This document shows, in pieces, positions 14,557-16,706 of a DNA stretch of 44,597 nucleotides (its first letter is position 1; each line of letters begins with the position of its first letter). The DNA is taken from the NCBI GenBank assembly GCA_949297015.1, contig CASFRF010000081.1, positions 1 to 44,597 of the forward strand, read 5' to 3'. The notes beneath the pieces are model-generated. The model was not told where the DNA came from. It saw only the letters and a program-made list of their open reading frames with translations, and did not search any database. A program made the position numbers and the translations under genes. The DNA comes from an uncultured bacterium. Lineage in GTDB: Bacteria > Verrucomicrobiota > Lentisphaeria > Victivallales > Victivallaceae.

Positions 14557-14594
14557 CAAAAAACGCCCCCGCTCCGTTCTCGGGAGCGGGGGCG
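14557..14594 (-). terminator. Rho-independent terminator of the capsid cassette
   Basis: A 12-bp GC-rich stem (14564-14575 with 14583-14594) and 7-base loop lie 17 bases beyond the last cassette gene. On the minus strand a run of six T follows. This separates the capsid genes from tpiA. Confidence 0.9.
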
Positions 14595-14611
14595 GTCAGC
14601 TGAAATCCGGC

Positions 14612-14995
14612 TCAGCCGCGGCTCAGATTCACCGGGCGCGGCGCCAGCCAGACCTGAAGCAGCCGCAGGGCCCGGGGCGCGTACTCGCCGGAGGGGCGCT
14701 CCGGGGCGGCGTAGGTCCGGCTGCCGACCCCGTCGACGGTTTCGGAAAGCACGGCCGGAACCTCGTCGGCCCGGCGGCACAGATGGATCGCCTGTTCGTA
14801 GACCGCGGCGCGTTGCAACAGCTCGCCGGAATCGATGGTCTTCCGGTGCAGCAACACCGCCAAATCCAGCGCGGCGGTGGCCAGCGCCGCCCGTCGCCGG
14901 GCGGTATTCTGGGCGCGCCAGTAGTCGCCGTCGAGGTGTTCGGCGAAGTACGCCTCCTCGTCGCGCAGCAGCAGCTCCAGCGTCGGATCGCTCAT
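14612..14995 (-). CDS. Small phage head-tail connector-like protein
   Basis: A 127-residue protein two bases downstream of the capsid gene. It is mainly helical (DEEAYFAEHLDGDYWRAQNTARRRAALATAALDLAVLLHR) with a C-terminal part LRLLQVWLAPRPV. Position right after a major capsid gene and size fit a phage head-completion or head-tail connector (gp6-like) protein, but no motif proves this. The frame remains open upstream through the capsid gene; ATG at 14995 is chosen because the capsid stop is at 14998-15000. Confidence 0.6.
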   Translation of the reverse strand: MSDPTLELLLRDEEAYFAEHLDGDYWRAQNTARRRAALATAALDLAVLLHRKTIDSGELLQRAAVYEQAIHLCRRADEVPAVLSETVDGVGSRTYAAPERPSGEYAPRALRLLQVWLAPRPVNLSRG

Positions 14996-14997
14996 CG

Positions 14998-16146
14998 TCA
15001 CTCGCCCCGGAGCGCGCTCAGCGCGGCGGCGCTGCCCGCCAGACCGTGGATCCGGCAGAGCCGCTGCCGGGCGTTCTTGAAGACGAAGGTCAGTTCGCCC
15101 AGCGCCATCCGCCGGATGCCGTCGAAGCCGCCGGGGGTGGCGTCCTCGTCGGCGATGGCCCGGCCCTGCAGATTGGCCAGGCCGAACCCGGCCGGATCCA
15201 GCACCCAGACATCGGTATCCGGAACGTCGGGATCGGCCACAATGGTCATGCCCCGGCCGTTGATTTCGTTGACCACCACCGCCACATAGGCGCCGCGGCG
15301 GTCGTCCGAGCGGACGATCTGAAGCTGGCTGCGGTACTCGTTGGAGAGCACCCGCGCCTGTCCCGGCGAGCACAGGATCTGGGCCGGATCCCCGCCCTCC
15401 TTCATCACCTGCTGGGCGGCGTCGTTGAACAGGCCGCTGTTCAGCGTGGCGCCTTCGGCGTCCAGCGCCAAAGCTCCGGACCCGGTGCCGAAGAAGTAGA
15501 GTCCGCCGGCCTCGCCCCGGGCGGCGGCGGTCGCCTCCACCCGGCGGCCGAACAACGCCACCCGGTTGAGGTCGCGCGCCAGTTCCCCCAGCGCGAACGC
15601 GGTCTGGCGGTTCAGCTGGTTGTCGACGTTGCCGAAGACGTTGATCGCCAGCGCGGTGCCCGACAGAACGATGTCCTTGCGGAAGATCTGGGTGCAGTTG
15701 TACTCGACCTGGCCGGTGATCCCGGTGGCGTCGCCGTCGCCGGAGCTGCTGCCCTCGGGCATCGGGGTCGAGACCAGATTCAGGGTCTGACCCTGGGCCG
15801 GGGCGCTGCTCTCCGAGCCGTTGGCCGCCACCAGCTCCACGGTGAAGCTGTCCTCCTCCACGGCGACCACCCGGAACAGCGCCGAATCGTTCTGGATCAC
15901 CAGCAGCGTGCCGACCCGGAGCTTGGCCAGATCCGCCGCCGAGGCCGGACAGGCGAGGCCGCTGACCGCGCCAGACACCGTGACCGCCCGCCCGGCGATC
16001 TGATCCTCCAGCCACTCATGTTTCTGCTGCGTGGCGTTCTCCACGGTCTGGAAGTTGGAAATGAACCGGGGTTCGTCCCGGATCACCGTCGACAACACAT
16101 CCGAGAGATCCCGCTTCTTGTTCTGAAAACTGTACGAATACAACAT
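14998..16146 (-). CDS. Phage-type major capsid protein (SU10/DUF5309-like)
   Basis: A 382-residue protein resembling the SU10-type major capsid family (HK97-fold). Seen features are the N-terminal RDLSDVLSTVIRDEPRFISNFQ and QQKHEWLEDQIAG (the REDLSD...HEWQ pattern), a central beta domain, YNCTQIFRKDIVLSGTA, LARDLNRVALFGRR, and a late GMTIVADPDVPDTDVWVLDPAGF. AGGAGG stands six bases before the ATG. It lies between a scaffold-like gene and a connector-like gene, but no portal, terminase, protease, tail or integrase gene is nearby. It may be a prophage remnant, a capsid-forming satellite piece or a domesticated shell. The reading frame is intact, which argues against simple decay. Confidence 0.8.
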   Translation of the reverse strand: MLYSYSFQNKKRDLSDVLSTVIRDEPRFISNFQTVENATQQKHEWLEDQIAGRAVTVSGAVSGLACPASAADLAKLRVGTLLVIQNDSALFRVVAVEEDSFTVELVAANGSESSAPAQGQTLNLVSTPMPEGSSSGDGDATGITGQVEYNCTQIFRKDIVLSGTALAINVFGNVDNQLNRQTAFALGELARDLNRVALFGRRVEATAAARGEAGGLYFFGTGSGALALDAEGATLNSGLFNDAAQQVMKEGGDPAQILCSPGQARVLSNEYRSQLQIVRSDDRRGAYVAVVVNEINGRGMTIVADPDVPDTDVWVLDPAGFGLANLQGRAIADEDATPGGFDGIRRMALGELTFVFKNARQRLCRIHGLAGSAAALSALRGE

Positions 16147-16183
16147 CTTTTTCCTCCTGATACGGTTTAACTTGGGGTTCGGT

Positions 16184-16591
16184 CTAGACCTTTTCCGGGG
16201 CTTCGGCCAGCATTTGGGCGATCACTTCGGTCCCGGTCCGCGGCGCCGGAAGTGCTGAAGCCGGGGGGAGCGCCGGAGGCGCCCCGGGTTCCAGCTGGAG
16301 CCGGAACAACCGCGGGCTGCGCTGACGCAACGTCTCCATGAAGGCGGTGCGCCCCGTTTCACTCTCCAGATCCGGCTGCTCCCGGCGACAGAGATACTCC
16401 AGGTACTCCGGATCGGCAAACCGGTACTCGCGGGCCAGATCCCGGGCCTGATGCCGCAGCCGCAGCTGCTCCAGCTCCTGCCGGGCGGCGTCGCGCTCGG
16501 CGATCAGTTCGGCCAGTCGGGGATCCGGCTCCGCCGGCGGGGCCGGGGCTCCGGAGTCCGGCTCCGGAAGGGGGGTGGCTTCATTGTCCAT
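16184..16591 (-). CDS. Phage scaffold-like protein
   Basis: A 135-residue acidic protein. A proline-rich start (PLPEPDSGAPAPPAEPDP) is followed by a coiled coil (about 25-55, LAELIAERDAARQELEQLRLRH) and a short helical C-terminal end (TGTEVIAQMLAEAPEKV). Small coiled-coil proteins immediately before a major capsid gene are usually scaffolding proteins, which is the basis for the call. The frame is open 18 codons upstream, but ATG at 16591 has AGGAG at proper spacing. A 10-bp palindrome (GGTCTAGACC, 16181-16190) surrounds the stop codon. Confidence 0.6.
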   Translation of the reverse strand: MDNEATPLPEPDSGAPAPPAEPDPRLAELIAERDAARQELEQLRLRHQARDLAREYRFADPEYLEYLCRREQPDLESETGRTAFMETLRQRSPRLFRLQLEPGAPPALPPASALPAPRTGTEVIAQMLAEAPEKV

Positions 16592-16669
16592 GATTTTTCT
16601 CCTGTGGTAAAGTGGTTTTCCGCTGCCCGGGAAGGGGCGACTCAATCCTCATGGAATTTTGTCAACCGC

Positions 16670-16681
16670 CGCTTGCAAGCG
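16670..16681. promoter_or_regulatory. 12-bp palindrome in the divergent promoter region
   Basis: CGCTTGCAAGCG is a perfect palindrome in the 115-base gap between the leftward capsid cassette and the rightward D-aminoacylase gene. On the minus strand it is next to a consensus TTGACA (16664-16669), though no good -10 follows. It could be an operator; the regulator is unknown. Confidence 0.35.
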
Positions 16682-16706
16682 CGACGGATCGGTGTATGGT
16701 TCCGTC

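Follow-up and report, generated by a model that had tools for sequence, protein, structure and literature searches.

The three-gene cassette at positions 14557-16591 of the window, the 44,597-nucleotide stretch of DNA analysed here, is probably the capsid locus of a domesticated particle system that derives from a tailed phage and occupies several loci, most likely a gene transfer agent (GTA). With less assurance we favor a more specific reading, in which this would be a GTA of new origin in the Lentisphaerota (PVC superphylum): a fully dissolved phage with its head, neck, packaging and tail parts at separate chromosomal loci that only a shared promoter code connects. It would have been passed on through 13 or more genera, its capsid would be better conserved than the replication clamp, and the scattering as such would block a return to selfish spread. 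The window is contig C81 of genome G000, which is incomplete (2.2 Mb, 96 contigs, 83% complete).

Reading and translation of the window identified three intact open reading frames on the minus strand. The sequence-only reading had described them as closely spaced genes with strong ribosome sites and their own terminator between tpiA and a D-aminoacylase gene. The frames, their positions and the terminator, which is a strong one, were found as described, and so were both neighbors: tpiA lies downstream on the same strand and the D-aminoacylase-like gene upstream in divergent orientation. The ribosome sites are strong for the scaffold gene (CAGGAG) and the capsid gene (CAGGAGG), but that of the third gene, which starts 2 bases past the capsid stop, is weak. 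The proposed SU10-type capsid was confirmed by a Pfam score of 166 bits (cut-off 24.1), by PHROG 1328 (major head protein, E 6e-33) and by a predicted model (pLDDT 66), which matches the SU10 capsid 7z46 (E 4e-9) and a VP1 capsid (E 7e-14); Family 2B encapsulin shells are matched as well (E 4e-5), with phage capsids as the best structural matches. For the scaffold-like and the 127-aa protein no significant family was detected in Pfam or PHROGs. We use the name scaffold-like because the gene precedes the capsid gene and its relatives adjoin the capsid in 52 of 58 loci. Low-Z model matches together with the gene position are the reason why we call the third protein head-tail connector-like, in agreement with the first description. 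Its model has a pLDDT of 85, and chains of phage necks or portal adaptors took each of the top six rows of VIA-align, with Z 4.4-6.1; a Foldseek search with the same model gave no significant match. Elsewhere in the window, near positions 24000-24600 beside dnaN and recF, the GC skew changes its sign, as near a replication origin.

Table 1. Positions of the cassette genes and of the putative control elements in the window
Feature	Position	Strand	Basis or remark
Promoter-like element GGTTGACAAAA	16657..16667	-	Upstream of the cassette; weight from the cross-locus test
Scaffold-like gene, 135 aa	16184..16591	-	Phage_scaffold only at E 0.097 (Pfam)
SU10-type (HK97-fold) major capsid protein, 382 aa	14998..16146	-	Pfam PF17236 (SU10_MCP), E 1.5e-48
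Head-tail connector (portal adaptor)-like protein, 127 aa	14612..14995	-	Model and position
Intrinsic terminator of the cassette	14564..14594	-	12-bp stem, 11 GC pairs, then TTTTTT

The cassette had also been called isolated. This holds for its surroundings, where no further phage gene, no integrase and no island boundaries were recognised among the open reading frames around the cassette; the neighbors look like housekeeping genes. It does not hold for the genome, which contains one intact portal gene on contig C7 and one intact large terminase (TerL) gene on contig C89. We scored capsid, portal and TerL by profiles or matches in 78 genomes from 19 genera of the family. The capsid was detected in 64 of the 78 genomes, the portal (PHROG 145) in 65 and TerL (PHROG 979) in 66, each in 14 of the 19 genera, and portal and TerL were near full length in 63 and 60 genomes, respectively. 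All three genes occur together in 64 genomes and 12 genomes have none of them; the two mixed cases are G097 without a capsid and G079 with a TerL fragment only. Two genomes of genus g16, which are among the closest to G000 by DnaN (62-64%), are without all three genes.

Stop-free capsid matches of at least 360 residues were obtained in 62 genomes, while the gene is split over two frames in G027 and over two contig ends in G100. The best match per genome shows 62-76% identity to the window, except in G024, which retains just a C-terminal piece of its native capsid and in addition a paralogue with 48% identity. Full-length best matches of DnaN from the same window reach 44-64% in the same family; as judged from these sequences the capsid is more conserved than the sliding clamp. 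Beside the capsid, relatives of the scaffold were found by tblastn in the 52 loci mentioned above, and at E 1e-4 the connector has relatives in 40 of the 58; the two locus sets overlap. Since intact capsid relatives recur across the family, the cassette is more than a chance arrangement. Outside the family, good capsid relatives were detected among 137 genomes of the order only in families f2 (3 genomes, 61-64%) and f4 (3 genomes, 51%), and in f2 a portal is likewise present in each of the three genomes, located on different contigs from the capsid.

Conservation in relatives at the same locus had been proposed as a check. Neither tpiA nor secG was found beside the cassette in 68 loci of relatives, and the D-aminoacylase-like gene (16659-18191 in the window) adjoins it only at L032, L049 and L089, of which the last two appear to belong to one genome; the site therefore differs between genera. 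This neighbor, seen in three genera, may be the trace of an older common site. Relatives without the cassette, or with the cassette in a full prophage at this site, had been named as refuting evidence. The capsid is indeed absent from 14 of the 78 genomes, whereas related prophage heads were found at other sites only.

In most genera the packaging motor, which in places includes TerS, and the genes for head, neck and tail tube are located on separate loci, namely scaffold-capsid-connector, portal-stopper, TerL and tube-terminator. Capsid, portal and TerL are usually single-copy and unlinked. The distance between capsid and portal is 1.29 Mb and between capsid and TerL 1.67 Mb in G018, and the corresponding values in the complete genome G009 (CP071032, strain zth2) are 10 kb and 169 kb. 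In CP071032 the capsid is located at about 1,774 kb, the portal at 1,786 kb, TerS-TerL at 1,604 kb and tube-type loci at 740 and 1,276 kb. Exceptions outside genus g15 are G023 and G006, in which the portal adjoins TerL, and G097, in which both lie within about 5 kb. A stopper-like gene is located next after the portal in 16 of 21 portal loci. The Walker and nuclease motifs of TerL are kept in 24 of 24 sequences. Of the 78 genomes, 60 have a TerL match that covers 400 or more of the 418 positions, with pieces only in G003, G020, G032, G061, G077 and G079; near-full portals with one stop are present in G068, G069, G011 and G006:C58. A tape measure, a lysis gene or a regulator was not found in the dispersed genera. 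Two proteins of about 300 aa (L225, 8178-9071; L226, 8661-9554) match a tail tube in the front half and apparently a prophage tail terminator in the back half, and are likely tube-terminator fusions.

The genes of this system appear to have been inherited together with the host. In 11 non-g15 genomes the pairwise distances were correlated for capsid and portal (0.95), capsid and TerL (0.93), capsid and DnaN (0.87), portal and DnaN (0.92) and TerL and DnaN (0.84), so that r ranges from 0.84 to 0.95 with p ≤0.0012; in the Mantel analysis of 16 genomes, with DnaN as the single host gene, r was 0.68-0.93 (p 0.0002). In the trees of capsid, portal and TerL each genus with at least two genomes forms one clade, with the exception of a second, divergent capsid of G070 within g15. 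The DnaN tree places G094 apart from the other g15 genomes. The dispersed genera form a clade in the portal tree (98/94), which includes the IMG/VR sequence L068, and in the TerL tree (83/96); g15 groups with the true prophages L080 and L069 with a support of 95/90 (portal) and 98/92 (TerL). The deep branches of the capsid tree are without resolution, and prophage capsids lie among them. A test for purifying selection had been suggested for the capsid, and the median omega within genera, calculated from pairs with finite dS and from genomes that are not independent within a genus, was 0.10 for the capsid (36 of 39 pairs), 0.113 for the portal (22 of 23), 0.127 for TerL (21 of 25) and 0.089 for DnaN (13 of 21). 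By this measure capsid, portal and TerL are under strong purifying selection.

A promoter-like GTTGACA element is common to the scattered head, neck, packaging and tail-tube loci. The element GGTTGACAAAA upstream of the cassette also precedes the portal (L172, near 9924) and the terminase (L192, near 7400) in G000. Within the window there is a single match within 1 mismatch, and at least one match occurred in 35 of 100 shuffled sequences, which is not significant; the weight of the element comes from the enrichment across loci and not from the match in the window. The 19 dispersed genomes, which are not independent within a genus, contributed 41 lead genes with an intergenic space of 60 bp or more. 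GTTGAC was present in the 150 bp upstream of 27 of these genes, compared with 15 of 390 control genes drawn from the same loci (p 3.8e-22). When all copies were counted, the motif preceded the scaffold in 9 of 11, the portal in 15 of 18 and TerL in 5 of 16 cases. TTGACA, which is also a usual -35 box of sigma-70 promoters, was found at 26 of 41 lead genes and 33 of 390 controls. In a separate test, with tail-tube-type genes identified by their homology, the element was located before 8 of 11 in the dispersed genera and before none of 6 in g15.

A stricter pattern gave more matches than backward controls in G000 (10 versus 0), G009 (15 versus 3), G025 (11 versus 8) and G008 (9 versus 4), but no enrichment in G018 (14 versus 33). 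Behind the strict matches we found the capsid cassette, portals, TerS-TerL, a tail tube and a terminator-like gene, together with orphan genes. Some strict matches stand before housekeeping genes or empty sites. Matches before guaB, leuC and pyrH (names from translations) or without a gene behind them were not taken as members of the system. One orphan, found via the motif, has 861 aa in G000 and is related to a gene directly upstream of TerL in g8. Its family occurs in 31 of 35 system-positive and in none of 9 system-negative non-g15 genomes (p 1e-6), and in none of 34 g15 genomes. The orphan regulon proteins have no match in Pfam or PHROGs. The products of element-led genes at L302, L327 and L329 belong to no known family; some of them contain long serine-rich stretches and are possibly fibres.

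Clustered relatives exist in addition to the dispersed system. In g15 the capsid cassette is clustered with TerS, the portal, a gene of about 170 aa of no known role and TerL, with an S24-type repressor on the other strand. This arrangement is seen in the g15 loci L096-L110, with L095 as an exception, and groups with true prophages; it may represent a separate, later domestication. Apparently full prophages with related heads are present in G004:C10 (L080, with L212) and G006:C90 (L092), and the large gene after their connector resembles a head-morphogenesis protein. The prophage G004:C10 and the IMG/VR sequence L069 share homologous TerS, portal, scaffold, capsid, connector and TerL with the system, and G004:C10 also has stopper, terminator, tube and tape measure in phage order. 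Both differ from the system in that they are clustered, contain a tape measure and group in the portal and TerL trees with g15 instead of the dispersed genera. The 10.8-kb IMG/VR contig L068 has clustered head genes and is nested among the dispersed portals; it may show the arrangement before scattering.

A GTA as defined in PMC9662315 consists of tailed-phage proteins and particles with mostly random host DNA, has a fully endogenized genome, often over several loci, that cannot be fully packaged, is inherited vertically and co-diversifies with its host, and delivers DNA. Three features that can be looked for in sequence are present: the proteins are derived from tailed phages (SU10_MCP, PHROG 145, PHROG 979), the genes are endogenized at several loci, which lie among housekeeping genes on different contigs or at large distances, and the correlation with DnaN and the monophyletic genera show vertical inheritance and co-diversification with the host. 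The retained portal and terminase indicate DNA packaging. The scattering suggests that the cargo is host DNA, since joint packaging of such distant genes is not to be expected and no replication or integration genes accompany them; as the loci extend over 169 kb in G009 and 1.67 Mb in G018, full packaging of the own genome is very unlikely. In a possible course of events a common promoter or regulator would switch on the loci jointly, scaffold and capsid would assemble a head on the portal, the terminase would fill it with host DNA, and connector, stopper, tube and terminator would close the head and add the tail. The particles would then exit the cell and transfer DNA to relatives. We infer DNA packaging and transfer from the genes retained; delivery to kin would be the usual outcome for a GTA, and killing by DNA-filled particles is a conceivable alternative.

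Such killing is the essence of a particle of the PBSX kind, in which the same machinery packages host DNA but eliminates rivals rather than delivering genes. PBSX is itself classed as GTA-like, with 13.4 kb of host DNA, in PMC12946183. All sequence evidence for a domesticated particle fits this explanation equally well, but a toxin or immunity gene was found at none of the examined loci and nothing positive singles it out, so that we regard it as unlikely. Decaying pieces of many prophages from one phage group, left at various places, would explain the full related prophages in G004:C10 and G006:C90 and the few broken copies. Such debris, and with it the remnant considered in the sequence-only reading, is very unlikely in view of intact frames and single copies in most genomes, the omega near 0.1, the occurrence in 14 of 19 genera, the monophyletic genera, the distances that track DnaN and the common element.

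The stand-alone nanocompartment, another early suggestion, would make the capsid an encapsulin-like shell with its neighbors as cargo or assembly aids. Encapsulins are HK97-fold shells without portal and packaging motor. The solitary position of the cassette in its locus and the match of the capsid model to Family 2B encapsulin are in line with this proposal, which we nevertheless consider highly improbable: the capsid is inherited together with portal, TerL, connector and stopper, purifying selection acts on portal and TerL, and phage capsids are the better structural matches. Even less probable is a satellite, or an island that depends on a helper, with capsid genes for the use of another element. 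Integrase and island boundaries are features of capsid-forming satellites, and although a cassette without integrase or tail genes might suggest dependence on a helper, neither feature was seen among the open reading frames around the cassette, the loci are scattered and inherited with the host, and the genome has its own portal and TerL. Of the capsid donor for a satellite or GTA that had been envisaged, the GTA part gained support, but not the lone donor, as the same genomes retain genes for portal, terminase, neck and tail tube at other loci.

The domesticated-particle reading can be tested in strain zth2 (G009), a cultured host of the system, because it is reported to release hexagonal particles upon induction by polysaccharides. 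According to PMC11361711, zth2 grown with polysaccharides released filamentous, hexagonal and icosahedral particles and phage-associated genes were increased 4- to 200-fold. Phage zth2-2 from that study (OL791268, 40 kb) was considered as a source of the zth2 genes, but none of the five proteins has a homologue in it. We infer that some of the hexagonal particles may belong to the GTA-like system.

Only a few independent origins of GTAs are known, and the resemblance to broken prophages makes them difficult to detect. The capsid of the Rhodobacter capsulatus GTA belongs to the Phage_capsid family and is not known to be of the SU10_MCP family. This GTA (Rhodogtaviriformidae) is similar to the system described here in its vertical inheritance and in the distribution of its genes over five loci, as stated in PMC9662315. 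The same source describes the Brachyspira GTA (VSH-1/BhGTA, Brachygtaviriformidae) with a divided genome, a conserved single-copy TerL outside the structural cluster and co-diversification with the host; in contrast to our system it keeps a 16.3-kb structural cluster, and its host belongs to a different phylum. A core head-tail structural cluster, given as typical for GTAs in PMC11841831, is absent in the dispersed genera. The FpGTA of Faecalibacterium, also from a gut anaerobe, has TerS, TerL, portal, scaffold and capsid, with structural genes in two places (PMC12946183). Compared by its description there, FpGTA I is one 10.5-kb operon, whereas the Victivallaceae system spreads the same functions over at least three loci. 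Our search of open-access journal papers found no relevant paper that joins gene transfer agents with the Lentisphaerota.

Taken together, a scattered and vertically transmitted GTA-like system in the Lentisphaerota with an SU10-type capsid is the best reading of these sequences. If it is correct, the range of GTAs would extend to another phylum and another type of capsid, and the system would show how widely a particle can have its genes dispersed and still work. Co-occurring, unlinked single-copy phage genes with a shared upstream element would offer a route to search for others, and particles may serve the exchange of DNA throughout a family of bacteria from gut and sediment.
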